Assembly: GCF_002163715.1 (NCBI RefSeq)
Contig: NZ_CP015698.1
Span: 434,001 to 498,000, forward strand
DNA from: Curvibacter sp. AEP1-3
GTDB taxonomy: Bacteria; Pseudomonadota; Gammaproteobacteria; Burkholderiales; Burkholderiaceae_C
Length of the DNA stretch: 64,000 nucleotides
Direction of reading: 5' to 3'
The notes under the pieces were generated by a model. The model made no database searches. It saw only the letters and a list, made by a program, of their open reading frames with translations, and was not told the origin of the DNA. A program made the translations under genes and the position numbers. Positions 2,916 through 45,765 of this stretch are shown here, in pieces. How positions within the stretch are numbered: position 1 is the stretch's first letter; every line of letters starts with the position of its first letter.

Positions 2916-2916
2916 A

Positions 2917-21667: not shown

Positions 21668-22012
21668 TCAGGCTCCCAAGCCCACGCAGATCAGGCAAGC
21701 TGCCACGATGATCGCGCGGCGCAGCATCGATTGCCCGAAAGACGAAGACGCTACCAACTCTGCGGTTGCGACATCCTCGGCAACCTGTTCTGGCGAGTCA
21801 TCACACTCCAGATACTGATGTGGCCGGTCGTAGGGGAAGAGAGCCCGGTCAAGCCAATAGCCACCCCAGCCTCCCAAAGCCATCAGGTGGGCCTTGTACA
21901 GGGTCACGGCTAGCAGCGTGCCGGGGTATGCCCCATGGAAAAACAGGGCGACGATGATGAGCACTACGGTGAGTAGTGCCCAGCTAAGCATGCGGGGAAA
22001 TTGGCTCTTCAT
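21668..22012 (-). CDS. putative holin
   Basis: A 114-aa membrane protein. The N-terminal part has a helix pair (LLTVVLIIVALFFHGAYPGTLLAVTL) and LGGWGGYWLDRALFPYDRP. The C-terminal helix (RAIIVAACLICVGLGA) ends the protein. Its size, the Trp/Tyr-rich WGGYWLDRALFPYDRPH loop and its place before the transglycosylase match holins of BcepMu-type phages, by memory. It is first gene of the leftward late operon, with an AGGAG Shine-Dalgarno 7 bp upstream and the late promoter 74 bp upstream. Confidence 0.7.
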   Translation of the reverse strand: MKSQFPRMLSWALLTVVLIIVALFFHGAYPGTLLAVTLYKAHLMALGGWGGYWLDRALFPYDRPHQYLECDDSPEQVAEDVATAELVASSSFGQSMLRRAIIVAACLICVGLGA

Positions 22013-22055
22013 GGCTGACTCCTAGAGGTTGATAGGCTTACGAGAAGTAAGCCCA

Positions 22056-22101
22056 CAGTCTCTAGAGTCAGCGGGGTTTGGTCATGGTGAAGTGTTTCAC
22101 C
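22056..22101 (-). promoter_or_regulatory. late promoter A, leftward (lysis-packaging operon)
   Basis: Palindrome GGTGAA-N4-TTCACC (22086-22101), then on the minus strand ATGACC and, 23 bases later, GAGACTG (22062-22056), preceded by CTA. The arrangement equals that of the three rightward copies. The leader to the holin ATG is about 40 nt and carries a Shine-Dalgarno, unlike the others. Confidence 0.65.
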
Positions 22102-22110
22102 AACCCCGGA

Positions 22111-22533
22111 TCAATGCTTGTTTTTTCGCCACAACCAAGGTGGCTCTGGTTCTGGATCAACCCAGAGGCCAAGGCGGTTTGCTTTGGCATCGTCTTGCAA
22201 TGGGTAGAGTGCCTCATAGCCTTTGGCGTAGTGGTCATACACCCAAGCCATGCCCAGCATTACTTGCTCTGTGGCTGCGTCTCTGCCTCTGCAGTTCACA
22301 TCTGCCACAGTCCGGTGATACCGATCTGTGGCTTTGGGCGTGATGGCTGCGTCCTGCATGTAGCAAAGGTCGCTCAGCGATTGCTTGGCACGCTGGCCGA
22401 ACGGCATGCCCTTTTCAGGAGCATCAATGGCGCTGAGCCGTATGGTGGTCTGCGGCTGGCCGTCGCAGTGAACCTTCAATGTGTCGCCATCGGTGATGGC
22501 GACGACCAGGCAGACATACGCAGCCAGAAGCAT
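22111..22533 (-). CDS. secreted thermonuclease-like protein (SNase fold)
   Basis: A 140-aa staphylococcal-nuclease homologue. A short hydrophobic N-terminus (MLLAAYVCLVVAI) overlaps the first strand TDGDTLKV. The catalytic Arg-Glu-Arg set is visible in IRLSAIDAPEKG and DRYHRTVA. It would cut DNA or RNA outside the cytoplasm. It starts directly after the stop of the 22534-23145 gene (TGAATG), so it is probably expressed with the repressor in the lysogen. A lysogen-benefit (moron) role is inference. Confidence 0.8.
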   Translation of the reverse strand: MLLAAYVCLVVAITDGDTLKVHCDGQPQTTIRLSAIDAPEKGMPFGQRAKQSLSDLCYMQDAAITPKATDRYHRTVADVNCRGRDAATEQVMLGMAWVYDHYAKGYEALYPLQDDAKANRLGLWVDPEPEPPWLWRKNKH

Positions 22534-23149: not shown

Positions 23150-23779
23150 TCACCATTCATGAGTTGATGCACGTACGCGTCCGACGATGGATACGCCTGT
23201 TGTCTTTGCCAGGTCTATGTCATAGGCGGGGTAATCTGGGTTGGCACTGCTAACGCGCAGCAGGCCATCCGGCAGAAGCTGGCAATACTTGACCAGGAGT
23301 TCTTCGCCCTGTAACAGCACATAAGCCCGACCGCTTTTGGGGAGGGTGTCTCCGATATCCACCAGTACCTTGTCACCGTCATTCAAGACGGGACGCATGG
23401 AGTCTCCGGCCACACGGATAACCTTCAAGTTGTTTGGCTGCAAGCCACGTTTTTGCAGCCATTGGCGGCTGAAGCTCAAGCCGCCATTGCACTCTTCATC
23501 GCCATTGATGGCACCAGGTCCCGCGCTAGCTGATACGTCGATTTGTGGCACCACCACATAGCTGGAGTCCACACCAATTCTCTGGCCCGTTACAACGTAA
23601 TTGGTATCCATGCCTGAAGCGTGAGCCAGCTTTAGATAGTCGGCGTCAGGAGCCCGATCTCCGCCTTCATACGCAAATTGGCTAGTACGACTTACATGGC
23701 AGATGGCCGCCCATTCATTGGGCGATTTGCCTAGCCTTTGTCGCTCGGCCTTTAGCCGTAGTCCCGTTTCTGCGTCCAT
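23150..23779 (-). CDS. phage repressor, HTH plus S24 peptidase domain
   Basis: A 209-aa LexA/CI-type repressor. The N-terminal helix-turn-helix (SPNEWAAICHVSRTSQFAYE) binds operators. The C-terminal S24 domain has catalytic Ser in VAGDSMRPV and Lys in LLVKYCQLL, so RecA-stimulated self-cleavage and SOS induction are likely. It starts just left of the operator region and transcribes leftward, opposite to the early genes. Confidence 0.88.
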   Translation of the reverse strand: MDAETGLRLKAERQRLGKSPNEWAAICHVSRTSQFAYEGGDRAPDADYLKLAHASGMDTNYVVTGQRIGVDSSYVVVPQIDVSASAGPGAINGDEECNGGLSFSRQWLQKRGLQPNNLKVIRVAGDSMRPVLNDGDKVLVDIGDTLPKSGRAYVLLQGEELLVKYCQLLPDGLLRVSSANPDYPAYDIDLAKTTGVSIVGRVRASTHEW

Positions 23780-30365: not shown

Positions 30366-31067
30366 ATGAACCGCGACAAAGCCCTATCCAAGATCAAGAA
30401 GTGCCTGGCGCTGGCAGCTTCCAGCAACCGGCATGAAGCCGCCGCTGCCATGCGCCAAGCTCAAAAGCTGATGGCCGAGTACGGCCTGACTGAATCGGAC
30501 GTGAGCTTGGCCGATGTGGCCGAACGCGAGGCCCCCGCACGCATGGCGGCCATCACACGCTGGGAGAGCACGCTGGCGAGAATCATCGCGGTGGCCTTCG
30601 GTTGCGAGCACTTCTCGCGGACCAACTACACGCTGCCTGCATGGGGCGCTCGTGTGAAGCAACGCGGATATGTATTTGTGGGCGTCGGCGCGGCGCCTGA
30701 GATTGCAAGCTACGCCTACACAGTGCTGGCACGACAGTGTGCAAAGGACCGACTTACCCACATCCGCAAGCAGCCCAAGAACTGCAAGCCCATCACCAAG
30801 ACGGCGCGCGGTGACCAGTTTGCCATGGGCTGGGTATATGGCGTGGCCGACCTGGTTGAAACCTTCGCTGGGGCAGAACGCAACCACGCGCTGATTGAGC
30901 AGTACATGGAACGGCACCATCCTGATCTGGCAGAAGCCAAGGTCAAGGACAGCACCAAGGGTCGCAACATCAGTCACAACGACCTGGCGCAGGGCCATCA
31001 AGCAGGCCGTAGCGCCCGTCTGTCCAAAGGGCTGGACAGCGTGGCGCAGAGGGAGCTGTTGGCATGA
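30366..31067 (+). CDS. DUF2786 phage protein
   Basis: A 233-aa protein. The N-terminal segment (NRDKALSKIKKCLALAASSNRHEAAAAMRQAQKLMAEYGL) is the DUF2786 signature. The rest resembles the DUF7168-type extension with a conserved FGCEHF region and GWVYGVADLVE. Function unknown, frequent in Mu-like phages. It has an AAAGGATG Shine-Dalgarno and is first gene after the tandem terminators. Confidence 0.8.
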   Translation: MNRDKALSKIKKCLALAASSNRHEAAAAMRQAQKLMAEYGLTESDVSLADVAEREAPARMAAITRWESTLARIIAVAFGCEHFSRTNYTLPAWGARVKQRGYVFVGVGAAPEIASYAYTVLARQCAKDRLTHIRKQPKNCKPITKTARGDQFAMGWVYGVADLVETFAGAERNHALIEQYMERHHPDLAEAKVKDSTKGRNISHNDLAQGHQAGRSARLSKGLDSVAQRELLA

Positions 31068-31516
31068 AACACATTGCCGCTATCCACGTCCTCAAGGGCC
31101 TGCTCAAGCTGCAGGACGATGACTACCGCGCGCTCCTCAACAACCTGGTCGGCAAGACCAGCTCCAAGGCCATGACCACGGCCGAGCTGTCCAAGGTGCG
31201 CACGCATATGGACGGCCTGGCAAAGCGCATGGGAGTACAAACACCGGCGCCCAAGGGCGCCGTAGCCGCCAAAGAACGCCCCCAGGTGCGCAAGCTCAAG
31301 GCTATGTGGTGGGCGCTGGCTGACGTTGGTGCCGTGGAGCGCCCTGCGGACGCTGCCGCCTGCACGCAGGCCGTGGAGGCATGGGCCAAGCGCCAGTCGA
31401 CGGGTAGCAAGGTGGGCCGGATTGACGCGCTGCGCTTTGCCGATTCCCTCCAACTGAACAAGCTCATTGAAGAAATGAAGGCTTGTGGAGACCGGGTAGG
31501 AGCGCCCACGCTATGA
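31064..31516 (+). CDS. gemA: GemA-like regulatory protein (Mu gp16 family)
   Basis: A 150-aa protein of the gp16/DUF1018 family: IHVLKGLLKLQDDDYRALLNNLVGKTSSKAMTTAELSKVRTHM at the N-terminus and MWWALADVGAVE in the middle. In Mu, GemA affects host gene expression and DNA topology. Coupled by ATGA overlaps to DUF2786 and to the Mor-like gene. Confidence 0.8.
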   Translation: MKHIAAIHVLKGLLKLQDDDYRALLNNLVGKTSSKAMTTAELSKVRTHMDGLAKRMGVQTPAPKGAVAAKERPQVRKLKAMWWALADVGAVERPADAAACTQAVEAWAKRQSTGSKVGRIDALRFADSLQLNKLIEEMKACGDRVGAPTL

Positions 31517-31995
31517 GCCGCACCGCCCCTGTTCTGACCATCAAGCCTGAGGCTCTGCCCGAGAGCCTGCGTGAGCTGGTGCGTGTGATTGGTGAGGCTG
31601 ACACCCTGCGCCTGATCGGCATGCATGGGGGCGCACGGGTTACGGTGCCCAAGACACCCAAGGCGGAACACCCACTGCGCATGGCACTCAGTGAAGAGGC
31701 CTTTAACCTCCTGGTGCAGGAATACGGTGGCGAAGCTTTTGACCTGCCCAAGGGCGACTCATACCTGCGCGAGCTGCGCCACGACCAGGTGCGCCAATGC
31801 AGGGAGCAAGGTCTGACAGTTGATGAGACGGCAGAGGCCACAGGCTACAGCCGCCGCCACGTGCTCAACATCTTGGGTGGGCATGGCGACAACACCGATC
31901 ACTTCACTATGGACCTCTTCGCCAAAGAGGCTCCGGCCCCCCGCAGCACACCGGGCGCGGCCAATGATCCATTTGGCCTGGGCGGACGTCTGTGA
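31513..31995 (+). CDS. Mor-like transcription activator
   Basis: A 160-aa protein of the Mor/C family. LVRVIGEADTLRLIGMHGGARVTVPKT is the family dimerisation part. VRQCREQGLTVDETAEATGYSRRHVLNILG is the C-terminal helix-turn-helix. Mor/C proteins switch on middle or late phage promoters with weak -10 and no good -35. Its likely targets are the promoter in 31996-32047 or the four GGTGAA-N4-TTCACC promoters. Only one Mor/C-family protein is visible, whereas Mu has two (Mor and C). Confidence 0.8.
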   Translation: MSRTAPVLTIKPEALPESLRELVRVIGEADTLRLIGMHGGARVTVPKTPKAEHPLRMALSEEAFNLLVQEYGGEAFDLPKGDSYLRELRHDQVRQCREQGLTVDETAEATGYSRRHVLNILGGHGDNTDHFTMDLFAKEAPAPRSTPGAANDPFGLGGRL

Positions 31996-32047
31996 GACTT
32001 GCCTTAAACTTTGTTCGGCTGTATTGGTATTGAGCGAAAGACCTTTT

Positions 32048-32353
32048 ATGAACAGTGCAGAGCTTGGCGCTATCGCCAGAAGGAATGCCGGGTTGTTGGA
32101 GCAGATTCAGAAAGCCCAACAAGAGATAGAAGAAAGACAGCGATTGATTCGGCGCCTACAGGCGGAAATGAAAGAGTCGGTAAAGGCATCGGGTGCTAAA
32201 GTAACGCCAGGTGTGTGTGCGTGCGTCAAGGATAGTGTCCAGCGCGGCAACTCATATGCGGAGGTCGGACAAGCGTTCGGGATAAGTAAAGCAACCGTTT
32301 CCTTGATCGTGAATAACAAGTACCGGACCAAGTCACTCCTCAAAGGCACCTAG
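32048..32353 (+). CDS. HTH protein, candidate late regulator
   Basis: A 101-aa protein. The N-terminal coiled coil (NAGLLEQIQKAQQEIEERQRLIRRLQAEM) would dimerise it, and the C-terminal HTH (NSYAEVGQAFGISKATVSLIVNN) would bind DNA. It is alone between the Mor-like gene and the terminator before the late promoter, the place of C in Mu. Not a C homologue by sequence. A role in late control is inference. Confidence 0.6.
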   Translation: MNSAELGAIARRNAGLLEQIQKAQQEIEERQRLIRRLQAEMKESVKASGAKVTPGVCACVKDSVQRGNSYAEVGQAFGISKATVSLIVNNKYRTKSLLKGT

Positions 32354-32423
32354 GGGCGTTTAATACCCCTTCAATAATCGTTTACAGAGTTTGCGGCACC
32401 ATCCGGGCGCAAACACCCCTATC

Positions 32424-32456
32424 AGGCCCCGTAGTTCCCGCTTCGGGGCCTTTGCT
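32424..32456 (+). terminator. intrinsic terminator before the late promoter
   Basis: GGCCCCG (32425-32431) / CGGGGCC (32444-32450) followed by TTTG. It shields the structural operon from early transcription and ends just 2 bp before the late palindrome. Confidence 0.65.
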
Positions 32457-32458
32457 TT

Positions 32459-32504
32459 GGTGAAGCGTTTCACCATGACGTAATTGACCCTGCTCGGCAC
32501 AGTG
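32459..32504 (+). promoter_or_regulatory. late promoter B (head operon)
   Basis: GGTGAAGCGTTTCACC (32459-32474), then ATGACG, then GCACAGT at 32498-32504. The protease ATG is at 32511, 36 bp after the palindrome. A palindrome centre near -41 would put the start site almost at the ATG. Confidence 0.65.
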
Positions 32505-32510
32505 CAGGGC

Positions 32511-33686
32511 ATGACACAAGCAAACCAATCTGCCCACGAGTTCAAAGGCCTGTCCGACTGGATTGAGGTGTTCCGCGCTGGAACACATACCGACAGCAAA
32601 GGCCGCAGCTGCACCTTCACTGAAGCTGACCTGGATCAGATGGTCAGCAACCTGGCACTTGGCGCCGCGCCTGCTGTGCTGGGGCACCCCAAGCACAACG
32701 ACCCTGCCTTTGCCTGGGTAAAGCCCGATGGTGCCAAGCGCGAGGGCAGTTCCCTGTTCGTGAAGTTTGAAGACATCAATCCGGCCTTTGAAGCTGGCGT
32801 GAACAGTGGTGCCTACCGCAACCGCTCTGTCTCAGTGTTCCAGGACAAAGACGCTGGCTGGCGTATGCGTCATGTGGGCTGGCTGGGTGCTGCTGCTCCG
32901 GCCATTGATGGCTTGACCCCGCTGGACTACAGCGCCGAGGTGGATGCCTACGAGTTTGACGCCGAAGACTGGGATATCGGCTACGCCCTGGGCGACACAG
33001 CGGAGCTGCTGCGTGGCCTGCGTGAGCAGCTCATTGCGGACAAGGGCATTGAAGCTGCTGACGCGGCCTTGCCCAACTGGCGCATCCAGTCTGTAGCGGA
33101 TGCCGCAGAGCGAGTGAAGGCTGCGGCTCGCACTGAAGTGGCACTAGGCACAGCAGGTTCTTTTTCTCAACTCAACAACACCGGAGGTGATATGACGATT
33201 TCTCAAGAGCAGCTGAATGCTGCTGTTGCTAAGGCCCGCAAAGAAGCGGAAGACGCTGCTGCTGCAACTTTTGCAGCCAGCCAGGCTGAGCTGGTCCGTC
33301 TGCAGGGCGAACGCCAGGCGGAACGCATTGGTGCGCTGATTACCGGCTGGACAGCTGGCGGAAAGATCACGCCCGCACAAACCGAAGGTCTGGCCGAGTT
33401 CATGACCTCGATTGAAGGCGGCGCAGGTGAGTTCACCTTCAGTGCCGCCGATAAGTCGGAAGTCAAAAAGGCACCCGCTCAGTTCTTTGCTGAGTTCATG
33501 GACAAGCTCAAACCGGTGATCAAGCTGGGCAACCAGTCTGATCTCGGCGGCGATCAAAACGCGATCGACCGTACTGATGCGAACCAAATCGCCGACCGTG
33601 CACGCGAGTACATGAAAGAACAAGAGGGTAAGGGCTTGTCGGTGTCTTTACCTGAAGCAGTGGCCTACGTGTCCCGCGCTGCCTAA
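32511..33686 (+). CDS. phage protease/scaffold (Mu gpI-like)
   Basis: A 391-aa fusion. The N-terminal protease part contains WIEVFRAGTHTDSKGR, VLGHPKHNDPAFAWV (the family GHPxxxxPAxGWV motif) and YRNRSVSVF. The C-terminal third is a scaffold-like helical region. It should cleave the scaffold and possibly capsid proteins during head maturation. A separate in-frame start at 33192 likely makes the scaffold alone, as Mu makes gpZ from within gene I. Confidence 0.85.
   Translation: MTQANQSAHEFKGLSDWIEVFRAGTHTDSKGRSCTFTEADLDQMVSNLALGAAPAVLGHPKHNDPAFAWVKPDGAKREGSSLFVKFEDINPAFEAGVNSGAYRNRSVSVFQDKDAGWRMRHVGWLGAAAPAIDGLTPLDYSAEVDAYEFDAEDWDIGYALGDTAELLRGLREQLIADKGIEAADAALPNWRIQSVADAAERVKAAARTEVALGTAGSFSQLNNTGGDMTISQEQLNAAVAKARKEAEDAAAATFAASQAELVRLQGERQAERIGALITGWTAGGKITPAQTEGLAEFMTSIEGGAGEFTFSAADKSEVKKAPAQFFAEFMDKLKPVIKLGNQSDLGGDQNAIDRTDANQIADRAREYMKEQEGKGLSVSLPEAVAYVSRAA
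33192..33686 (+). CDS. scaffold protein from internal start (Mu gpZ-like)
   Basis: ATG at 33192 lies in frame 227 codons into the protease gene and is preceded by GGAGGTGA, the best Shine-Dalgarno in the whole late region. The product (164 aa, MTISQEQLNAAVAKARKEAE...) is a charged helical protein of scaffold type. Confidence 0.7.
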   Translation: MTISQEQLNAAVAKARKEAEDAAAATFAASQAELVRLQGERQAERIGALITGWTAGGKITPAQTEGLAEFMTSIEGGAGEFTFSAADKSEVKKAPAQFFAEFMDKLKPVIKLGNQSDLGGDQNAIDRTDANQIADRAREYMKEQEGKGLSVSLPEAVAYVSRAA

Positions 33687-33722
33687 GCCCACCCACTTAT
33701 TGATTAACTCTCGGAGAAACGC

Positions 33723-34106
33723 ATGGCTAATCCTTTGCTGGCAGTGAACTACGTTGCAGACGCTGCCATTCCTAACAACCGCCTGGTCCGCTTCGGAACG
33801 GGTGATCGCAACGTGACTTTGGCTACAGCAGCCACTGACTCCATTATTGGCGTGGTGAACGAAATGCCTCCAGGTATCGCTACAGGCGAGCGTGTGGACG
33901 TTGTTCGTGTGGGCATTGCCTGGGTGGAAGCCGGGGCAGCCATCACTCGTGGGGCTTTGATTACATCCGACGCATCTGGACGTGCAGTTACAGCTGCCCC
34001 TGCAGCCGGTGTGAACAACCGAATCATCGGCATTGCGGATGAATCTGCAACTGCTGCCGGTGACGTCATTCGATTCACCATCGAACCGGGCTCTGTCCAG
34101 GGCTAA
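33723..34106 (+). CDS. head decoration protein (DUF2190-like)
   Basis: A 127-aa beta-rich protein with the capsid-cement pattern: FGTGDRNVTLATAATDSIIGVVNE, VDVVRVGIAWVEAGAAITRGALITSDASGRAV and VNNRIIGIADES. It would sit on the capsid surface and stabilise it. Directly before the major capsid gene. A weak hairpin (CCAGTCC...GGGACTGG) follows at 34111-34132. Confidence 0.8.
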   Translation: MANPLLAVNYVADAAIPNNRLVRFGTGDRNVTLATAATDSIIGVVNEMPPGIATGERVDVVRVGIAWVEAGAAITRGALITSDASGRAVTAAPAAGVNNRIIGIADESATAAGDVIRFTIEPGSVQG

Positions 34107-34166
34107 TAGCTAGCGCCAGTCCTTTGGGACTGGCTTGAGACCACTCATTCACTTTCAGGAGAAAAC

Positions 34167-35123
34167 ATGGCTACTACTGCCTTTCCTATCAATCCGACGC
34201 TGACCGCGATCGCGATGGTGTATTCCAACCCAGCTACTGCACTGATTGCTGATGAGGTGATGCCACGCATCTCGACAGCGAAGAAGTTCGCCTGGTCCAA
34301 CTATGACGTCGCTCAAGGCTTTACCGTGCCGCAAACCTTGGTGGGTCGCAAGAGCGTGCCAACCGAAGTGGATTTCACTGGAACGCTGGTCAATGATGAA
34401 GTGCTGGATTACGGCCTGGACGATATCGTGCCCAACGACGAAATTGAAGCCTTCAATTCCCAGGTGAAACCTACACGTGGTGGCCCGGTGAATCCTTTGG
34501 ATGTGAGCACTATGCTGACCACCAAGCTGATTCAACTGGACCGCGAGGTCCGCGTGGCGAACCGCGTTTTCAACACGGCAAGCTATTCAGGAAGCAACCA
34601 GGTAACCCTCTCGGGCACTGGCCAGTGGTCTGACTTTGTTAACAGCAACCCGTTGGATGCCATTTTGTCTGCCCTGGACATTCCGGTGTACCGGCCAAAC
34701 GTGGCGGTTTTTGGCCAAGCAGCTTTCACCAAGGTGCGCCAGCATCCGCGCGTTGTGCAAGCCGTGTTCGGCACCGCTCAGAACGGTGGCGTGGTTACTC
34801 GTGAACAACTGGCTCAAGTGTTGGAAATCCAAAAAGTTGTGGTGGGTGCAGGCTTTGTCAACACTGCCCGTAAGGGACAAGCCGTTAACAACCAGCGCGT
34901 CTGGGGCAAGCATGCCGCATTCCTTTATGTCGACAAGGAAGCAGCAATGGCGCAGCAGCCTTGCTGGGGCTTCACTGCCCAGTGGGGAGATCGGGTGGCT
35001 GGAGAAATGCCTGAGCCCAAGATGGGCATTCGTGGCTCGCAACGTGTACGCGTTGCGGAGTCTGTGAAAGAAGTAGTGAGTGCTCCGGCACTGGGGTACT
35101 ACTTTCAGAACGCTGTGGCCTAA
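34167..35123 (+). CDS. major capsid protein
   Basis: A 318-aa HK97-fold-type capsid protein by position and pattern: an N-terminal arm (NPTLTAIAMVYSNPATALIADEVMPRI), GLDDIVPNDEI, RPNVAVFGQAAFTKVRQHPRV and the C-terminal VRVAESVKEVVSAPALGYYF. It has a good Shine-Dalgarno (CAGGAG) and is followed by a strong hairpin, as expected for the most abundant late product. Confidence 0.82.
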   Translation: MATTAFPINPTLTAIAMVYSNPATALIADEVMPRISTAKKFAWSNYDVAQGFTVPQTLVGRKSVPTEVDFTGTLVNDEVLDYGLDDIVPNDEIEAFNSQVKPTRGGPVNPLDVSTMLTTKLIQLDREVRVANRVFNTASYSGSNQVTLSGTGQWSDFVNSNPLDAILSALDIPVYRPNVAVFGQAAFTKVRQHPRVVQAVFGTAQNGGVVTREQLAQVLEIQKVVVGAGFVNTARKGQAVNNQRVWGKHAAFLYVDKEAAMAQQPCWGFTAQWGDRVAGEMPEPKMGIRGSQRVRVAESVKEVVSAPALGYYFQNAVA

Positions 35124-35133
35124 AAGCCCAAGG

Positions 35134-35170
35134 GAGCAGGGGCTTAGTCCCCTGCTTCAAGTTTTCAACT
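35134..35170 (+). terminator. partial terminator or processing hairpin after the capsid gene
   Basis: GAGCAGGGG (35134-35142) pairs with CCCCTGCTT (35149-35157), followed by CAAGTTTTC. The short U-run suggests incomplete termination, which would raise capsid mRNA over downstream genes. Confidence 0.5.
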
Positions 35171-35183
35171 ACCGGAGTTAACT

Positions 35184-35633
35184 ATGAACAAAACACGCAA
35201 TTCCTTGGCGGTGATGGTCGCGCTGACAGCCCTGGTCGTCGTAGAACACGACGGCATTAAATATGGCCCTGGCCAACCTGCCGGGACTGACTTTGAGGCA
35301 TCAGAGACCGAGGCAGCAGCATTGCTGGAGGTCAAAGCCGTCAAGATTTATGAGGCCAGTGCCACTTCCGAGGAAAGCCGCAATACCGAGCAGGAAGCCG
35401 CTATTGCGGAGAACGTTGCAGCTGTGCTTGCGCAGACCCGCCTTGATTTGCAGGCAGCTGCAGATGCACAAGCCAAGGCAGACGCTGATGCCAAGGCAGC
35501 ATCCGAGGCACAGGCCAAGGCTGATGCAGATGCAAAAACCGTAGCCGATGAACGCGCCAAACTGGACGCTGAAATCAAAGCTTTCGAAGAAGCCAAGGCC
35601 GCTGCTGCCAAGGCTGCTGCGAAGAAGGCCTAA
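35184..35633 (+). CDS. Ala-rich coiled-coil phage protein
   Basis: A 149-aa protein. The N-terminal 50 residues (VVEHDGIKYGPGQPAGTDFEASETEAAALLEVKAVKIYE) look like the small DUF7210-type head domain. The rest is a long coiled coil with repeats of the type AQAKADADAKA and an Ala/Lys tail. It may connect head proteins or act in assembly. The low-complexity DNA makes this gene prone to length change. Confidence 0.65.
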   Translation: MNKTRNSLAVMVALTALVVVEHDGIKYGPGQPAGTDFEASETEAAALLEVKAVKIYEASATSEESRNTEQEAAIAENVAAVLAQTRLDLQAAADAQAKADADAKAASEAQAKADADAKTVADERAKLDAEIKAFEEAKAAAAKAAAKKA

Positions 35634-35639
35634 ACGCCA

Positions 35640-36155
35640 ATGGCCTACGCGACCCCCCAGCGCTTCATCCAGGAATATGGCCTGGATGAGACCACCCAGC
35701 TCTTGGCCGATGAGCAGCAACTGCTCACCAGTCAGTTGCTGAGTGATGCGCTGGCCGGGTCATGGACTGGTACGCCCAGTGCTGCCGAGCAGGCTGCGGC
35801 CAATGCCGCCAAAGACCGCATCACCCGCAAGCTGGCGACCGTGAGTAACTTCATGGACGGTTACCTTCGTGGCGCTGTCACATTGCCGCTTTCAACGTCT
35901 GACGCTAATGCGGGCACCCTTGAGGAGTGCTGCATCGCCTTGGCTCGTGAGGGCGTGTCTGATGACTCTGACAACGCCACGGAGCGGATGGTGCAGATCG
36001 CTGATCGGTGGCGCGCCTGGTTGAAGGATGTTCAGTCTGGCAGGGTGTCTTTGATCACGGTTGCCGGGGAGGAAGTGGCTAGCCGTGGGCGTGTGCGCAC
36101 TGGGCAGGCTGCATCCAATTTCAACTGGGGCAGCTTTACGCCCAGGAGCTATTGA
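35640..36155 (+). CDS. DUF1320 protein (Mu gp36-like)
   Basis: A 171-aa head-tail joining protein: MAYATPQRFIQEYGLDETTQLL at the start, then a helical DUF1320 body ending DRWRAWLKDVQSGRVSL. In Mu the homologue is gp36. Its TGA overlaps the next ATG (TGATG). Confidence 0.8.
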   Translation: MAYATPQRFIQEYGLDETTQLLADEQQLLTSQLLSDALAGSWTGTPSAAEQAAANAAKDRITRKLATVSNFMDGYLRGAVTLPLSTSDANAGTLEECCIALAREGVSDDSDNATERMVQIADRWRAWLKDVQSGRVSLITVAGEEVASRGRVRTGQAASNFNWGSFTPRSY

Positions 36156-36601
36156 TGGCAGGCACATCCATTCGCTATGGCTTTGATGCAAGCCCTATCA
36201 GCTTGCATCTCGCGCGCCTGGCAGTGCTGGGTGCAAACCAGTTTGCAGAGGTCCGCCGGGATATCGGTGAGTACTTCAAAGGCGACATCCAGGACAACCT
36301 GGACGGGCAAAAGCTGTTTGATGGCAAGCCCATGGAGCAAAGCGAGGCTGCTATCGGCCGCGCCGGTAAGACGCTGATCCACAAGGGCCACCTGCGGGAC
36401 AGCTACGACTACCAGCTGGAAGGCGCTGGCCTAGCTATCGGTAGCATCTCGGTCTATGCCGCCATTCACCACTTTGGAGGTGAAACAGGTCGCAAGGGGC
36501 ACCGCTTCACCCTTCCCGCTCGCCCAGTGATGGGCTTCGGAGAGCGCCAAGAGCGCCGTATTGGTGACCTGTTGATTGCTGAGCTGAGGGCGCTGCAATG
36601 A
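36155..36601 (+). CDS. phage virion morphogenesis protein (Mu gpG-like)
   Basis: A 148-aa protein. It shows FAEVRRDIGEYFKGDIQDN, TLIHKGHLRDSYDYQ, VYAAIHHFGGETGRKGHRFTLPARPVMGF, the hallmark of the virion morphogenesis/tail-completion family. Start ATG at 36155 with AGGAG upstream. It completes the connector or tail terminus. Confidence 0.85.
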   Translation: MAGTSIRYGFDASPISLHLARLAVLGANQFAEVRRDIGEYFKGDIQDNLDGQKLFDGKPMEQSEAAIGRAGKTLIHKGHLRDSYDYQLEGAGLAIGSISVYAAIHHFGGETGRKGHRFTLPARPVMGFGERQERRIGDLLIAELRALQ

Positions 36602-37200
36602 GCACAGCCCTGCTTGACCAGGTGGAAGCCTATGTCCGCGCAACGTTTCCCAAGACTGAAGTAGCGACGGTGCAGACCTATGGTGGCGAATTCAATACAG
36701 GCGAGATGGACAAGGTGAGCTACTCCTGCCCGGCCATCTTCTTAACTGTACTGGGCTGGCAACCACTGCACGCCGGCCATCGCTTGAGCGGGAAGTATGC
36801 CCGCCAAGTGCGTGTGGCCGCCTTCGTGGTGGCGAAGAACGCGAAGCGTGAAGTGCGTATGCGTCAGGGTATGGCCTTGGCTGAAAAGCTGTGCCTGGTG
36901 ATGCGCCAGTGGATGCCGGACAACTCTGCCTCCACATTAATTAATGTGGGACCGCTGGAGGATGACGCCTCCGCAGAAAACCTTTACAGCCGTGCGGTGG
37001 ACAAGTTGGGCCAGTCCGTTTGGCTGGTGGACTGGCACCAGGCGGTGAAGCCGATTGCTGGTGCTGACGGCAAGCCTGCACTTTATGACTGGCTGAGCGT
37101 TGCCATTGAAGACACCGCACGCATTACTGAGCCTGCAGCATCGTCGCCCACTGGCGCACCGCTGACAGTGACCGAAAAGATTATTTTCCCTACCAACTGA
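36598..37200 (+). CDS. DUF1834 protein (Mu gp37-like)
   Basis: A 200-aa protein with a phage tail-terminator-like layout (LLDQVEAYVRATFPKTEVATVQTYGGEF...GKYARQVRVAAFVVAKNAKREVRMRQGMALAEKL). Mu gp37 is the positional homologue. Overlaps the upstream gene by 4 bp. Confidence 0.75.
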   Translation: MSTALLDQVEAYVRATFPKTEVATVQTYGGEFNTGEMDKVSYSCPAIFLTVLGWQPLHAGHRLSGKYARQVRVAAFVVAKNAKREVRMRQGMALAEKLCLVMRQWMPDNSASTLINVGPLEDDASAENLYSRAVDKLGQSVWLVDWHQAVKPIAGADGKPALYDWLSVAIEDTARITEPAASSPTGAPLTVTEKIIFPTN

Positions 37201-37210
37201 CGGAGCCACT

Positions 37211-37435
37211 ATGCCCAAAGCAGAAACCAAGACCGCGCCTGAAGACACACAAGGCGTGGCAACCGCCCAAGAGACCCCTCGCCTGGGTGAACTGATTCAC
37301 GTCCAGGTGGCCGATGGCCTGGAGCTGATCAACAACGAAACCGGCAAGGACTTTGAGCCTGGTGTGCCCACGTTGCAGACCGTGACGGTGACCACTCTGC
37401 GCCGCTTGCAAGACGGGGACCTGGTGCGCGTTTAA
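37211..37435 (+). CDS. DUF2635 protein (Mu gp38-like)
   Basis: A 74-aa protein whose second half (VPTLQTVTVTTLRRLQDGDLVRV) matches DUF2635, a small protein found just before the sheath gene in Mu-like phages. Function unknown. Confidence 0.75.
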   Translation: MPKAETKTAPEDTQGVATAQETPRLGELIHVQVADGLELINNETGKDFEPGVPTLQTVTVTTLRRLQDGDLVRV

Positions 37436-37493
37436 ACGCCACCAAACCTGCATTCAAACGCTTTTTAAAACCAACTGAACGGAGGGCACCTAA

Positions 37494-38969
37494 ATGTCTA
37501 TTTCCAACTTGATGAGCTTGAACTTTCTGGTGCCCTACGTTGCCAGCAAGATTGATTTCAGCCGCGCGATTCGCGGCATGCGCGGTATGCCACGTCGCCT
37601 GCTCCTGGTGGGCCACAAGCTGGTGGGCGGTACGCTGGCCGTCAACACGCTGTCCACCATCACTACGGAGGCGGATGCCATCACCAAGCTGGGCGAAGGC
37701 TCCATGCTGCTGGCAATGTGGCGAGATGCCAAGGACAATGCTGACTTGGGCCTGCCCATTGATGTGATTGCCATTAATGAAGGCGGATCGGCAGTCAAGG
37801 CGACCAGTGCCCTTGTGGTTGGCGGCGCGCCTACCGTAGGTGGCGAGGTGATGCTGTACATCGGAGGTGAGCGGGTAAGCGTCGGTGTCACGACTGCCGA
37901 CACCTCGGCCACGATTGCAACCAAGTTGAACGCCGCCATCAATGCGATGGCTAAGCTTCCTGTCACTGCGTCCGTGGCTGCCAGTACGGTAACCATTACA
38001 GCCCGATGGGGTGGTCCTTCAGGCAATGACATCAATGTACGGACCACTTACTACCCAGACGATGCGCTGGCGACCGGTGTGACGCTGACAACGCCAGCTA
38101 TGGCAGGTGGTGCAGTGTTGCCAGATGTGACTCCTGTGATCACGGCGATGAACCTCTACCGTGCGACGGAAATCGTCAACCCATTCACAGATAGCCCCAA
38201 CATGGTGTTGTTTGAAAACGAGCTGGCTGCACGCTGGTTGCAAAACAACATGCAGGATGCGATGGTAGTGACCTGCGTGCGTGGCACTGAGGCCGCCATC
38301 ACCACCTGGCTGAATACCCGCAACAGCCCGCATGTGCACACCATTGCTGTGACCAATGACTGCACTTCCCCTTGGGAGACTGCAGCCATGGCAGGTGCGG
38401 CGATTGAAAGCAGCGCTGCCATTGACCCGGCTGTGGGGCCGACTGCCAAGTTGTTGGGCTACAGAGGGCCTGTGCAGGGTGCAGGTTTTGTAGTTGACAG
38501 CATGAATAACCTGCTGGCAAAAGGCGGCTCACCACTGAACATTGCTGTGGATTACACCGGCAGCCTGCTGCGCATGGTGACTAACTACAAGCTGAGCCCT
38601 GGTGGCGCGCCTGACCGCAGCATGGCCGAAATGTGCTGGCTCAAGACAATGAGCTTCTACCGTTGGTACCGGGTGACCGAGTTCCAGAACAAGTACAACA
38701 ACGCCGGTTACAAGCTGGGGCAGTACGTGGATCAGCCTATTCCTGGTCAGAAGATCATGACGGTTGATTTGGCCGAAGAAATCATGATTGGGCTGTACAA
38801 GATCTTCTGCGATGCAGGCCTGTGCCAGAACATGCCGTATTACATCTCGACCTTGAAGGTGGAGATTGATGCCCCGAACGGCAAATTGAAGATCATGGAT
38901 GAGCCTGTGATCCTGACCCAACACTACCAGACCGAGGTGACCAGCAACGTGGTTGCGGGTCAGGTGTAA
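37494..38969 (+). CDS. tail sheath protein (Mu gpL-like)
   Basis: A 491-aa contractile sheath protein. It has an N-terminal polymerisation arm, a middle surface domain with GGPSGNDINVRTTYYPDD, and a C-terminal core ending YYISTLKVEIDAPNGKLKIMDEPVILTQHYQTEVTSNVVAG. Position before the tube gene and length fit gpL. GGAGGG lies upstream of the ATG. Confidence 0.88.
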   Translation: MSISNLMSLNFLVPYVASKIDFSRAIRGMRGMPRRLLLVGHKLVGGTLAVNTLSTITTEADAITKLGEGSMLLAMWRDAKDNADLGLPIDVIAINEGGSAVKATSALVVGGAPTVGGEVMLYIGGERVSVGVTTADTSATIATKLNAAINAMAKLPVTASVAASTVTITARWGGPSGNDINVRTTYYPDDALATGVTLTTPAMAGGAVLPDVTPVITAMNLYRATEIVNPFTDSPNMVLFENELAARWLQNNMQDAMVVTCVRGTEAAITTWLNTRNSPHVHTIAVTNDCTSPWETAAMAGAAIESSAAIDPAVGPTAKLLGYRGPVQGAGFVVDSMNNLLAKGGSPLNIAVDYTGSLLRMVTNYKLSPGGAPDRSMAEMCWLKTMSFYRWYRVTEFQNKYNNAGYKLGQYVDQPIPGQKIMTVDLAEEIMIGLYKIFCDAGLCQNMPYYISTLKVEIDAPNGKLKIMDEPVILTQHYQTEVTSNVVAGQV

Positions 38970-39003
38970 GTCGGGCCTTATTTGAAACTACCAGGAGAAA
39001 CAC

Positions 39004-39375
39004 ATGGCAGGTGAAAACCAACTCTTTCACGTAGACGTGATCATTGTGGATGGGGCACCCATCGCGTTTGAAGACAGCTCCGCATCTATCTCAGGAGCAG
39101 CCGGATTCACCAATTCGCCCAAGCTGTCTGCAAGCGGCGATGACTTTGTCTTGCGTGCCCGTGTGGCTCGCTTGCTCAAGGCCAAGCTGCAGTGGGCGTC
39201 CACGTCTGATCCGAAGACGTATGCAGGTATGAGCAATGTGCAGATTTCGATGCGCGACAGCTTTACCGGCCGCAAGGTCATGGCACCCAAAGCAACGTTT
39301 GGTGACATTGGTGACATCGGCGGGGGCACGGTGGATATCACCTTCATCCTGAATTCAGAGCTGCAATGGCTGTGA
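39004..39375 (+). CDS. tail tube protein (Mu gpM-like)
   Basis: A 123-aa protein. It shows AGFTNSPKLSASGDDFVLRARVARLLKAKLQWAS, SMRDSFTGRKVMAPKATFGDIGDIGGGTVDITF, a compact beta-rich tube subunit. AGGAG precedes the ATG. A terminator follows at 39420. Confidence 0.85.
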   Translation: MAGENQLFHVDVIIVDGAPIAFEDSSASISGAAGFTNSPKLSASGDDFVLRARVARLLKAKLQWASTSDPKTYAGMSNVQISMRDSFTGRKVMAPKATFGDIGDIGGGTVDITFILNSELQWL

Positions 39376-39419
39376 AATAAACAACTGTAGAGAGCGAAGG
39401 CTGGCCCATGTAGGGCACT

Positions 39420-39450
39420 GGGCGGGGCATCGAAAGGTGCTCCGCCCTTT
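39420..39450 (+). terminator. intrinsic terminator after the tail tube gene
   Basis: GGGCGGGGCA (39420-39429) / TGCTCCGCCC (39438-39447) followed by TTTC. It ends the head-sheath-tube transcript 11 bp before late promoter C. Confidence 0.7.
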
Positions 39451-39460
39451 CACTTGGTGC

Positions 39461-39506
39461 GGTGAAGTGTTTCACCATGACCAAAGTGGCGTGCAGTTGG
39501 ACACTG
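39461..39506 (+). promoter_or_regulatory. late promoter C (tail assembly operon)
   Basis: GGTGAAGTGTTTCACC (39461-39476), ATGACC, then GACACTG (39500-39506). The tail chaperone ATG (39513) comes 36 bp after the palindrome and has no Shine-Dalgarno. Confidence 0.65.
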
Positions 39507-39512
39507 CATGCC

Positions 39513-40100
39513 ATGAACACACAAAGCACCCCCGCTGCAGTGTCGTCCAGCATTGACGACATATTCCAACTGACTTTAGCTGACGGCTTGCCCGCCGAGG
39601 TGGGTGGGAAAACCATCAAATACCGCACGGTCCGTCTTCGGGAGACCTCTGTGGCCGATGAGCGGATTGCTGCCCGGATGGCCGAGCGGGTCATGACAGT
39701 GGGCGGTGTGCCGAAGTTGCTGGTAAGCGAGTCTGACTTCCGCTACGCCATGACCATGCGCCATTGCGAGTACTTTGAGTGCGATGGGACCAAGCTCCCC
39801 CTGGCCGTGCTCGACCTGGACACGTTTGGCAAGCTGAGTCCCTATGACCTGCAACTGCTGGAGGAGCGAGTGGTACTGGTGACGCTGGCCGCCCAGTTGC
39901 GTTACGGCGTCATCACCCAAGCCGATTTTGATCAGTTCGCAGCAGGCCGCATCCCGGCCGGAAGCAACGCATCCCCACAGCCCGTGGGCCAGGCTGCAGA
40001 TGTGGGATCGCATGCTGGTCTCCCTGAGTCTGGCCCTGCACTGCTCGCCGATTTCACTGGAAGTGGTGCCCACGCCACAGCTGCAGGCGATGGCGCTTGA
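39513..40100 (+). CDS. tail assembly chaperone (Mu gp41-like)
   Basis: A 195-aa protein: DIFQLTLADGLPAEVGGKTIKYRTVRLRETSVADERIAARMAERV is the gp41-type start, and LDTFGKLSPYDLQLLEERVVLVTLAAQLRYGVIT the core. It coats the tape measure during tail assembly. The late end is Ala/Gly-rich, and a second open frame begins to look like protein there. Start ATG at 39513 fits the constant promoter spacing. Confidence 0.8.
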   Translation: MNTQSTPAAVSSSIDDIFQLTLADGLPAEVGGKTIKYRTVRLRETSVADERIAARMAERVMTVGGVPKLLVSESDFRYAMTMRHCEYFECDGTKLPLAVLDLDTFGKLSPYDLQLLEERVVLVTLAAQLRYGVITQADFDQFAAGRIPAGSNASPQPVGQAADVGSHAGLPESGPALLADFTGSGAHATAAGDGA

Positions 40101-40131
40101 CATAACCCGGCGTGCAAACAAGTCCAAATAA
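39928..40131 (+). CDS. probable frameshifted extension of the tail chaperone
   Basis: The frame two bases back (equal to +1) from the chaperone frame is open from 39883 to 40131. It encodes WARLQMWDRMLVSLSLALH, then a short proline-containing stretch and TPQLQAMALDITRRANKS, which looks like a real protein end and passes the chaperone stop at 40100. Mu is known to make its gp41-gp42 product by a -2 shift, the same net direction. No start codon is claimed here and the slip site is not identified. Confidence 0.45.
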   Translation: MISSQQAASRPEATHPHSPWARLQMWDRMLVSLSLALHCSPISLEVVPTPQLQAMALDITRRANKSK

Positions 40132-40140
40132 GTCTTTGCC

Positions 40141-42198
40141 ATGCGTGAATTCAAACTGAAGTACTTCATTGACCTGGTGTCGAACATTCGCGAGAAGGCG
40201 GGTGACGATGCCAAGGCGTTGACTCAGGCGCAGGACAAGATTCAAAAGGCCTTGGGCGAGACGGAAAAGAGGCTGGGCACCTATGAGCGCTTTCTGTTGC
40301 GCATTGGCGGTGTGCACAACTCCAGCCTGGATAAACAGGCGAAGTACTTTTCACAAATCGCCTTGAGTGCTGCCCGTGCCCAGCAGTCGGTTGAGAAGTA
40401 TGAGCGCGCCTTGAGCGCTGCCAACAAGGGGTTGCAGGCGGTTACGGGCTTTGGCGCTGGGGCGGCCGGTGCATTCATGATCGGCAAGGCTGGTTTTGAC
40501 AAGCCTATGGACTACGACATGCGCTTGCGATCTGCAACCGCGACGGCCTACGCCGGGGCCAAGGACATCAATGAGCTGCGCGCCGGGTATGCCCAGGTCA
40601 ATGCCCTCATCAATGGCACCGTGCGAAACGTGCGCGGTGCTCGGCGTGACGATGCGCTGGGGGCCTATGAGAAGCTGGTAGGCACCGGGTCATTCTCCAA
40701 AGAAGAGAGTGAGAAGCTGTTGCCTTCCATCATGCGGACCTCTGTAGCCAGCCGGGCCAGCTCAGATGACCTTGTCCAGGCTGCGGAAAAAATGAAGGTG
40801 AACTTTGGTCTGGCGCCAGAGCAAATTGATCTTGCCCTTGCCAAAGTGATGCGTGCTGGACAGGAGGGTGGATTTGAGATCAAAGACTCGGCGAAGTGGA
40901 TCGGCCCATTAGCACCCATGTTTAAGGGCTACAAAGGCATGGCTGGTGTGGAAGCAATGGTCACCATGTTGCAGCAGGTGCGCTCTACGGCGGGAACCAA
41001 TGATGAAGCCGCCAACAACCTGCGGAACTTCATGCAGAAGATACCTGCCGACTCCACCCGCAAGGACTTTGCCAAGCAAGGCATCGACCTGACAGCTGAG
41101 ATGGCAAAAGGAGCTGCTGCAGGGAAGACGCCCGTGGACACGTACATGGCGATGCTTGACCGCGTGATGGCGAAGCAAGACCCGCAGGGCAAGGCGCGAG
41201 CTGCGATGGCAGCTGCCGACAAAAGCCTTACGCCTGAAGAGCGAGCTCAACGCTACTCGGACGTTGCAGACATTTACAAGAGTGCTGGTATCTCCACCAT
41301 CATCAATGACCTGCAAGAGTTTGGCGGCTATTCCGGTCTGGCGAAAACACGCGACTACGGCGCAAAGGTGATGGGAGCCGTCCAGGGTGAGACTGGAGGG
41401 TCGGTGGCCTTGGGGTATCAGTTCCTGAGTGAGGGAAGTGGTTCACGTGCAGTTGATCTGGCAAACCGCAAGGACATTGCTGCGAGCGATGCCCTGGAGG
41501 GCATTGCAGGACCGCTCAACACCTTGATGGATAAGACGGTGGCCCTAAGCGATGAATTCCCCAAGACAACAGCAGCGGCGTACGCAGCCACAGTTGCCTT
41601 GGGGGCCTTGGCCGCAGCATCTACTGCTGCGGCCCTCCTGGGGGGCGGTGGCGTTGCAGGCAAGGTTGGCGGATGGATTGGTGGCGCAGCAACCCGTGTG
41701 GGTACGGTGCTGGGCGCTGCGAGAGTTGCTGGCGGCGCGGGTGTTGGTATGGCGGCAGGGGGTGCAGCCATACCGATAGCCGCTGCCGCTGGCGCCCTAG
41801 GCGTTGGCTACGCAGGCGGGACGATTTTGAACAAGACCCTCTTGGAGGGGACCTCGTTTAGCAATGGGCTGGGGCGGGGTATGCACCGTGTGGCTTCGTT
41901 TTTTGGCAGTGAGGATTCAACTAGGGCGCTAGCTGCAGAGGATGCGCTGGACAAGATGCTGAATAGCCGCCCACTGGCACGTGTGAATCCGATCAATATC
42001 TCCGCGCCTGGTGGAGCTGCAGGTGGCTTAGACGTTAGTGGTGGCTTGGGAAGCGGCAGGCTGGATGTAGGCCAAGGGACACTTGGCATTGATGTGCGTG
42101 TGACAGATGAGCGAGTTTCCGCCGTGCCACGTGTGCTGCAGCAGCCATCGCTGATCCGCCTCAATCCGGGCGCAACGAATCCCGGAGGGCTGCGCTGA
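40141..42198 (+). CDS. tail tape measure protein (Mu gp42-like)
   Basis: A 685-aa protein that sets tail length. An N-terminal coiled coil is followed by a family region (AGAAGAFMIGKAGFDKPMDYDMRLRSATATAYAG...FGLAPEQIDLALAKVMRAGQEGGFEIKDSAKWIGPLAP). Gly/Ala-rich hydrophobic helices lie at residues about 475-565, and the C-terminal tail has no clear domain. No lysozyme domain is visible. Confidence 0.87.
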   Translation: MREFKLKYFIDLVSNIREKAGDDAKALTQAQDKIQKALGETEKRLGTYERFLLRIGGVHNSSLDKQAKYFSQIALSAARAQQSVEKYERALSAANKGLQAVTGFGAGAAGAFMIGKAGFDKPMDYDMRLRSATATAYAGAKDINELRAGYAQVNALINGTVRNVRGARRDDALGAYEKLVGTGSFSKEESEKLLPSIMRTSVASRASSDDLVQAAEKMKVNFGLAPEQIDLALAKVMRAGQEGGFEIKDSAKWIGPLAPMFKGYKGMAGVEAMVTMLQQVRSTAGTNDEAANNLRNFMQKIPADSTRKDFAKQGIDLTAEMAKGAAAGKTPVDTYMAMLDRVMAKQDPQGKARAAMAAADKSLTPEERAQRYSDVADIYKSAGISTIINDLQEFGGYSGLAKTRDYGAKVMGAVQGETGGSVALGYQFLSEGSGSRAVDLANRKDIAASDALEGIAGPLNTLMDKTVALSDEFPKTTAAAYAATVALGALAAASTAAALLGGGGVAGKVGGWIGGAATRVGTVLGAARVAGGAGVGMAAGGAAIPIAAAAGALGVGYAGGTILNKTLLEGTSFSNGLGRGMHRVASFFGSEDSTRALAAEDALDKMLNSRPLARVNPINISAPGGAAGGLDVSGGLGSGRLDVGQGTLGIDVRVTDERVSAVPRVLQQPSLIRLNPGATNPGGLR

Positions 42199-45117: not shown

Positions 45118-45123
45118 TGCTTT

Positions 45124-45169
45124 GGTGAAGTGTTTCACCATGACCAATTGACGCCGGTTTAAGACACTG
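45124..45169 (+). promoter_or_regulatory. late promoter D (baseplate-fibre operon)
   Basis: GGTGAAGTGTTTCACC (45124-45139), ATGACC, then GACACTG (45163-45169) preceded by TTTAA, the best -10-like version. The gp46-like ATG (45175) follows the palindrome by 35 bp and has no Shine-Dalgarno. Confidence 0.65.
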
Positions 45170-45174
45170 GCCGC

Positions 45175-45765
45175 ATGTTTGATGTGGCCACACGACCCCA
45201 GCCCAATACCGTAGACGCCGCGAGCGTCTTTGGAATGCCGTTTGACTGGCGTTTGGTGACGCCTGGCCCTGCGGTGAACTACCCTTGGAAAGACTTCGTG
45301 CAGCCCAATGGGGTGCCGGTGGTCTACGCCGATGTTCTGGCGACCTACTCGTTGGAGCTGGAGGACACGCTGCAGACGGCAGTGATCCTTTCCCTGTTTA
45401 CAGATCGGCGCGCTGGCATCGATGACAAACTACCCCAAGGTGAAACGGATCGCCGTGGCTGGGTGGGCGATGAGTTCACGACAGACGACTTTGATTCTCG
45501 CCCCGACCCTTGGGGCTCCCTGCTCTGGACTTGCTACGGAGGCAAGAGCAGCCAGGAGCTTCTGGAGCGTGCCCGCTTTGCTGCGGCAGAGGCTCTGGAC
45601 TGGATGGTGCGTGATGGCATTGCAAGCCGGGTGAGTGTGATCGCGCAGTGGGTAGGCGAGCGCCAAGACCGCTTAGCTGTGCGCCCCTCCATCTACAAGC
45701 CTGGTCAAGTAACCCCGGTCTATGACGTGCTTTGGGGCACCAGCGTCAAAAGGTTCATCCAATGA
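45175..45765 (+). CDS. baseplate protein (Mu gp46-like)
   Basis: A 196-aa gp25-lysozyme-like baseplate wedge protein of the GP46 family: ILSLFTDRRAGIDDKLPQGETDRRGWVGDEF, GSLLWTCYGGKSSQELLERARFAAAEALDWMVRDGIA. Overlaps the J-like gene by 4 bp. Confidence 0.83.
   Translation: MFDVATRPQPNTVDAASVFGMPFDWRLVTPGPAVNYPWKDFVQPNGVPVVYADVLATYSLELEDTLQTAVILSLFTDRRAGIDDKLPQGETDRRGWVGDEFTTDDFDSRPDPWGSLLWTCYGGKSSQELLERARFAAAEALDWMVRDGIASRVSVIAQWVGERQDRLAVRPSIYKPGQVTPVYDVLWGTSVKRFIQ

Follow-up and report, generated by a model that had tools for sequence, protein, structure and literature searches.

Based on the analysis of a 64,000-nucleotide stretch of the Curvibacter sp. AEP1-3 genome (hereafter the window; positions 434,001 to 498,000 of NZ_CP015698.1), the prophage TJ1 is predicted to carry a late regulon of four activator-type promoters under a Mor-like protein, in which translation would favor the RNAs that start at these late promoters. 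We put the probability of this reading at about 0.8. The palindromic site, its promoter geometry, its conservation, its co-occurrence with the Mor-like protein and the covarying pairing in front of the holin gene are all read from the sequences, and from them we infer binding, activation, transcript starts and the effect on translation. TJ1 is a Mu-like (KS10-like) prophage of Curvibacter sp. AEP1.3, a symbiont of Hydra. By sequence comparison, window positions 31000-46000 (15 kb) are 100% identical to Curvibacter phage TJ1 (MH766655), and a coordinate in that record plus 13891 gives the position in the window. A leftward block of holin, lysis, terminase and portal genes is followed by a CI-like repressor gene; a rightward early block ends with the GemA and Mor-like genes, and the structural genes come next, also rightward.

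Four palindromic promoter modules and their conservation

The palindrome GGTGAA-N4-TTCACC followed by ATGAC was found, exact in every case, at four places (Table 1), as an earlier note made from the window's sequence had reported. That note called the modules identical, which is true of the arms; the inner four bases differ (GTGT, GCGT and GTGT, with ACAC on the minus strand at 22086). The second block, GACACTG or close to it, which had been placed 24-30 bases behind each palindrome, is indeed present in all four, but at an offset of exactly 24 bases, with the hexamers GAGACT, CACAGT, GACACT and GACACT. It is best read as a -10 element, with a -35-like ATGACC/G in front and 17 bp between the two. 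All four hexamers retain A at position 2 and T at position 6; because they match TATAAT at only three of six positions, the exact transcript start is uncertain. If transcription starts 7 bases behind the -10, the center of the palindrome would lie at about -43.5 rather than near -41 as had been proposed, or at -44.5 if the A of the ATG is +1 in the I and gp41 units. A plain sigma-70 consensus scan picked none of the four sites, as one would expect of weak promoters that depend on an activator. Five phages have lost the -35-like ATGAC from their I modules and retain the palindrome and -10 there, as would suit an activator that takes the place of the -35. At the middle promoter Pm of Mu, as described in passages of PMC4390567, a Mor dimer on a 16-bp element centered at -43.5 replaces the -35. 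The TJ1 dyads share this length and center, but Pm is a single middle-operon promoter with 5-bp arms and a 6-bp spacer, whereas TJ1 has four late promoters with 6-bp arms and a 4-bp spacer.

The number of palindromes in the window is far above chance. With up to two mismatches allowed, 12 sites were counted against 2.57 expected, and none of 100 shuffles reached 12; in 60 windows simulated with the window's dinucleotide frequencies, the exact palindrome did not occur at all, and no N4 palindrome with 6-bp arms was present more than twice. The bare palindrome occurs at seven places in the whole genome (4,383,889 bases; one for the reversed control pattern), and the three beyond the prophage are not followed by ATGAC on either strand. 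The full module, GTGAA-N4-TTCACC-ATGAC-N19-ANANT, has four genome copies, all in TJ1 (reversed control, none), so that this count, named beforehand as a test, found the module confined to the prophage and not scattered through host genes. One near copy with a single mismatch, GGTGAACTGATTCACG, lies within a gene at window positions 37286-37301, and GGTGAAGTGATTCACG stands at the corresponding place in three related loci (L009, L018 and L019); it may represent coding conservation or a decoy. As a late promoter it was set aside, being intragenic and without a -35 or -10 behind it.

Each palindrome precedes the first gene of a late unit, namely the holin, protease I, gp41-like and gp46-like genes, just as had been claimed, and the same genes head the units in the relatives. 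Among records of at least 35 kb, shorter fragments being left out, four sites each were recognized in 11 of the 12 phages compared, and three in KS10. The 11 are TJ1, IMG/VR 2884453867, 3300025718_000018, 2894787282, 3300031262_000102, 2721755125, 2841506206, 2926167175, 3300002854 and 3300013842, and contig JARLJH010000048. In this tally 2721755125, the same sequence as MGPC01000035 where compared, was counted once, one palindrome mismatch was allowed in 2894787282 (I) and 3300013842 (gp41), and the gene behind the holin-side site of 3300031262_000102 was not read. Every one of the 12 loci brought in by relatives of the Mor-like protein contains one or more exact palindromes, located at the corresponding places as far as the fragment extends (the I site of L016 has one mismatch). 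Apart from TJ1, which accounts for one locus, they represent nine phages, L009 and L019 being identical and L014 forming part of L013.

When 2.9 million viral contigs were searched for GGTGAA-N4-TTCACC-ATGAC, 58 stretches with 67 exact 21-mer matches were returned, 45 of which were assigned: 10 before holin, seven before I, 10 before gp41-like and 18 before gp46-like genes. The 22 unassigned matches comprise a copy of a holin match (L053), two before other genes (L068 and L109), three fifth units (L069, L073 and L091), one that may be a further real module (L083) and 15 that look like chance matches. Over all loci there are 12 distinct I modules and 14 distinct holin modules, each count including KS10, besides 14 of gp41 and 16 of gp46; L109 and some later-found sites are omitted. 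In two related phages, the palindrome-ATGAC module also heads a fifth late unit, whose gene encodes an Acb2/Tad1 hairpin protein (PF24729, 64 bits), a member of a family of counter-defense sponges. More remote Mor-family genes are present in further genomes of the order, with 24-38% identity where aligned, and no GTGAA-N4-TTCAC was found in 29 loci of such relatives (L022-L050, up to 3.4 kb each), which also contained no relative of I, gp41 or gp46, and a holin in only two. The site code thus seems, as far as seen, to belong to this lineage.

The constant distance between palindrome and -10-like hexamer, though gene starts lie anywhere from 5 to 48 nt behind the hexamer, also bears on whether the palindrome acts in DNA or in RNA. 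As RNA it would form a 6-bp hairpin, GGUGAA-N4-UUCACC, which a translational regulator might read, with the ATG of ATGAC as the start codon. The gp41 modules lend this some color, because a start codon upstream of the ATG is in frame and open in 10 of the 14 and the ATGAC frame meets a stop in only three, and the TJ1 record itself places the gp41 start at 39477. However, that frame runs into a stop in all 13 holin modules, in 11 of the 16 for gp46 and in eight of the 12 for I, and the ATG of ATGAC was rejected as a start codon on this ground; moreover, the five I modules that have lost ATGAC keep the palindrome. We consider an RNA signal very improbable, and treat the palindrome as a predicted promoter site in DNA.

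Table 1. Positions of the predicted late promoters, leader structures and neighboring genes in the window (loci named where other sequences are meant)
Feature	Position	Strand	Remarks
Palindrome, holin/lysis unit	22086..22101	-	Activator-type; GGTGAAACACTTCACC on minus strand; kept before holin in relatives
Holin promoter	22057..22085	-	-35-like ATGACC (22085-22080), 17-bp spacer, -10-like GAGACT (22062-22057); inferred start near 22050
Palindrome, protease I unit	32459..32474	+	Activator-type; kept in relatives
Protease I promoter	32475..32503	+	-35-like ATGACG (32475-32480), 17-bp spacer, -10-like CACAGT (32498-32503); inferred start 32510/32511
Palindrome, gp41-like tail chaperone unit	39461..39476	+	Activator-type; kept in relatives
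gp41-like promoter	39477..39505	+	-35-like ATGACC (39477-39482), 17-bp spacer, -10-like GACACT (39500-39505)
Palindrome, gp46-like baseplate unit	45124..45139	+	Activator-type; kept in relatives
gp46-like promoter	45140..45168	+	-35-like ATGACC (45140-45145), 17-bp spacer, -10-like GACACT (45163-45168)
5' arm of read-through lock	22060..22072	-	GCTGACTCTAGAG; upstream of inferred transcription start
Inner leader hairpin	22034..22054	-	GGGCTTAC-TTCTC-GTAAGCCT
3' arm of read-through lock	22014..22027	-	CTCTAGGAGTCAGC, with holin Shine-Dalgarno AGGAG
Holin	21668..22012	-	PF13272 Holin_2-3; first gene of leftward late unit
Protease I (head maturation protease)	32511..33686	+	phrog_976; predicted leaderless ATG 32511
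gp41-like tail assembly chaperone	39513..40100	+	phrog_508; predicted leaderless ATG 39513
gp46-like baseplate wedge protein	45175..45765	+	PF07409; predicted leaderless ATG 45175
Mor/C-like protein	31513..31995	+	Likely to activate all four sites; matches phrog_836 (late transcriptional activator), E 1.6e-26
Small helix-turn-helix protein	32048..32353	+	Rejected as binder
GemA	31064-31516		PF06252
CI-like repressor	23150-23779	-	
SNase	22111-22533		
Terminator-like hairpin	39420..39447	+	Just upstream of gp41 palindrome
Weaker terminator-like hairpin	32436-32448		Before I
Acb2/Tad1 gene, fifth unit	L069:3990-4310	-	
Acb2/Tad1 gene, fifth unit	L073:8872-9195		

The Mor-like protein as candidate activator

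The Mor-like protein likely activates all four sites. It is encoded in 14 of 14 loci, all of which, the TJ1 record apart, had been found through Mor or its search hits. Among 17 chosen contigs, the 10 longer ones with modules, four of them found by the DNA pattern alone, have one Mor-like protein each, whereas the seven with chance matches, out of 15 such contigs, have none. The earlier note had named two candidate binders, the Mor-like and a small helix-turn-helix protein; the former is supported by this match in distribution, and the latter, found in TJ1 only, is excluded as a requirement.

Another DNA-binding protein might occupy the palindromes instead, either the helix-turn-helix protein or the CI-like repressor, in which latter case they would be operators keeping the late genes silent in the lysogen. 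Both appear to be DNA-binding proteins encoded by TJ1, and palindromes near a -35 can be operators. The helix-turn-helix protein, however, is present in only two of the 14 loci, both of them TJ1, and was found in none of the 12 others, all of which keep the sites; these include L012, where Mor is 96% identical, and it was therefore rejected as a required binder. No relative of CI is present in L015 or L016, two loci that cover that region and keep the sites, and its match in KS10 spans residues 1-67 only. Since weak -10 elements and a site at -43.5 also suit activation rather than silencing, we regard either protein as an improbable alternative to the Mor-like activator. The SNase and helix-turn-helix genes occur in TJ1 only among the 14 loci, though L013, L014 and L017 stop short of the SNase region, and are perhaps recent insertions beside the late heads.

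The TJ1 protein likely belongs to the Mor/C family, although its membership is not clean. Its Pfam Mor (PF08765) score is 20.4 bits against a cut-off of 24.9, which is reached by three of five relatives (L010, 25.2; P0005, 24.9; P0040, 26.4; the last two chosen because they were already labeled Mor) and not by L012 (20.5) or KS10 (22.0); 28 of 61 relatives match PF08765 at E up to 0.001. The GG-x-PxG strand motif is present, GGEAFDLPKGD being aligned with GGGQVYIPRGQ and GGRQFYIPCGD of Mu Mor and C, with a helix-turn-helix-like stretch behind it, and overall identity to these two proteins is 21-25%. The gene lies directly after that for GemA and ahead of the late genes, an order common to KS10 and Mu. 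A Foldseek search with the predicted fold gave nothing below E 0.7, and a profile search of the PDB gave no Mor entry, while a single-sequence search matched Mu C chains at E 0.28 only.

We could not find a second Mor-family match in the prophage by a search of limited sensitivity, in which the TJ1 protein itself scored 18.4 bits. Given this single match, the Mu relay of Mor and then C may be collapsed into one step in TJ1, so far as such a search can tell. About 60 kb outside the window, at G000:C1:560388-560600 on the minus strand, the host genome has a Mor-family match that exceeds the cut-off and contains one TGA; it may be left over from another prophage.

Translation starts of the late units

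The I, gp41 and gp46 messages should start at the AUG or one base before it. In all 42 distinct modules (12 of 12, 14 of 14 and 16 of 16, respectively) the ATG lies 5-7 nt after the -10, and the late mRNAs should therefore be leaderless. At all 30 gp41 and gp46 modules the protein aligns to that of TJ1 from residue 1 at this ATG. The Shine-Dalgarno strengths of the three TJ1 heads rank 47, 50 and 52 among 54 genes, against 15 for the holin. The annotated starts of I (TTG 32484) and gp41-like (39477) in TJ1 and of I in KS10 (18120 of its record), which lie upstream of the inferred transcript starts, are probably wrong.

Several observations weigh against leaderless messages, and would suit a real regulon in which transcription starts further upstream, or translation at an upstream in-frame codon, giving short leaders with poor Shine-Dalgarno sequences. 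In-frame alternative starts exist in nine of 12 I and 10 of 14 gp41 modules (19 of the 42), where the leaderless case is weaker; the -10 hexamers, with half of the consensus positions, leave the exact start uncertain; and gp46 of KS10, which has a looser site and is outside the 42, starts 24 bases after the -10 and is not leaderless. On the other side, gp46 has no alternative upstream start in any of its 16 modules (an in-frame stop in 11), and the distance of 5-7 nt from the -10 to the ATG holds throughout. Short leaders thus seem to us unlikely, but they are a more serious alternative than those considered above, and leaderless starts are preferred here.

The holin gene is different. By its sequence, its leader is a predicted lock of the T4 gene e type, with the 5' arm upstream of the inferred late start, the Shine-Dalgarno sequence in the 3' arm and the pairing conserved. 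The earlier note mentions neither this lock nor the leaderless geometry. In the 13 leaders with 43-48 bases between -10 and start, the strand of the promoter spacer and -10 is predicted to pair, in read-through RNA, with the Shine-Dalgarno region in a long helix around an inner hairpin; with KS10 included, the fold z-scores of the 14 leaders average -5.4, and all are below -3.4. When the arms were swapped among the 13, own pairs gave -19.0 and swapped pairs -15.1 kcal/mol (0 of 5000 permutations), whereas four control windows gave no signal (1008 to 4304 of 5000). Covariation is seen in one column with TA, CG and AT and in another with CG, AT, TA and TG, a count made on each leader's own fold and thus leaning towards pairing. 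Opening the start region is predicted to cost 17.7 kcal/mol in read-through RNA against 7.7 in late RNA; the Shine-Dalgarno sequence is unpaired on average at 0.08 and 0.37, respectively, and is freer in late RNA in 12 of the 13, because its pairing arm lies in the promoter. Such a lock makes sense since the repressor gene, on the same strand, points at the holin. The KS10 leader (62 bases), which was omitted from the swap and accessibility tests, has a hairpin over the -10, but the lock was not seen in it. RNAalifold on a MAFFT alignment of the holin leaders found no structure, probably because the 3' arms are misaligned, and the swap test was used instead.

According to passages of PMC3014915, the start regions of T4 gene e (lysozyme), soc, 49 and I-TevI are folded away in longer upstream RNAs, and the late promoter of gene e is situated at the helix's 5' strand, which late RNAs consequently lack. 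The holin lock of the TJ1 group has the same design, but T4 uses its own late sigma factor, whereas TJ1 has an activator-type sigma-70-like promoter before the holin. Unlike that of gene e, the holin leader of this group also contains an inner hairpin, terminator-like in most relatives: at least five T in a row follow it in 11 of the 13 rows of alignment A1, TJ1 and its near relative L090 being without the T run. The hairpin with its T run begins near the inferred +1 and could end upstream RNAs or attenuate lysis.

For the I, gp41 and gp46 heads, tests of this kind did not establish a lock. Swapping the arms at gp46 gave a negative result (4576 of 5000); the AUG there is covered by a conserved hairpin in which two columns show two-sided changes, but much of it is coding. 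For a conserved hairpin at the head of I the swap test yielded 26 of 5000, but a control window yielded 28, and no claim is made for it. The gp41 head gave a strong result (1 of 5000), but one control, palindrome versus start, gave 15 of 5000, which leaves the gp41 structure as a lead only. Terminator-like hairpins before gp41 and I are no more than suggestive of insulation of these late heads, because shuffles gave a mean of 12.4 such hairpins against a scan total of nine. The I palindrome of 3300002854 itself forms the stem of a terminator-like hairpin with eight T behind it.

Comparison with other phages and timing of late expression

The earlier note had likened the system to the four C-dependent promoters of Mu with another site sequence, and this comparison is upheld, as far as sequences tell, by the same four heads in relatives, the confinement of the module to the prophage and the match in distribution with Mor. 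According to PMC4461284, the Mu late promoters Plys, PI, PP and Pmom are served by host polymerase and have non-consensus -10 and -35 elements; further likenesses to TJ1 are the number of four late promoters, the activator site at or upstream of the -35, and the lysis and I units. However, Mu has separate Mor and C proteins, whereas TJ1 has one Mor-family match, and the remaining heads are P and mom in Mu but gp41- and gp46-like in TJ1. In the Mu sequence, Shine-Dalgarno-like sequences precede the lys, I and com starts, a situation different from that of the TJ1 I, gp41 and gp46 heads. The Mu C site is TTAT-N6-ATAA, which is present before com in the Mu sequence; the TJ1 site, GGTGAA-N4-TTCACC, is not of this form. 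Burkholderia phage KS10 is closer, with the same split layout and relatives of Mor, holin, I, gp41 and gp46; its TGAA-N4-TTCA sites, looser than that of TJ1, stand before three heads and not before the gp41-like gene. Late promoters are not described in passages of the KS10 paper (PMC2628397), nor did promoters of the TJ1 type appear in titles and abstract beginnings of the open-licence literature on TJ1 and KS10, the late promoters and Mu-like regulation of late genes, leaderless late mRNAs and T4 locks. What seems new is that an activator-type late promoter is combined with starts predicted to be leaderless or locked.

We propose that the Mor-like protein, expressed from the end of the early/middle operon, would bind the four palindromes as a dimer, and that from about -43.5, upstream of or replacing a poor -35, it would let host sigma-70 RNA polymerase start. 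Four weak late promoters would thereby be switched on, for holin/lysis, protease I, gp41-like and gp46-like units. The I, gp41 and gp46 messages, predicted to be leaderless and with weak or no Shine-Dalgarno sequences, would be translated mainly from late RNAs, and the holin Shine-Dalgarno sequence would be folded away in RNA from the repressor side and freer in RNA from the late promoter. It is conceivable, at somewhat less than even odds, that all four heads follow one design, the -10 being so placed that the RNA lacks whatever blocks ribosomes or fails to recruit them. The Mor-like activator and the RNA architecture would then each enforce the timing, and read-through in a lysogen from the repressor or the early operon could not make holin or structural proteins.

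In short, a named Curvibacter phage gains a complete predicted late regulon with a simple code, so that site recognition by the Mor/C family outside Mu can be tested directly. Should the leaderless heads and the holin lock prove right, the three annotated starts discussed above (I and gp41 of TJ1, and I of KS10) need moving, and the regulon would be a clear case of promoter position and translational control acting as one element.
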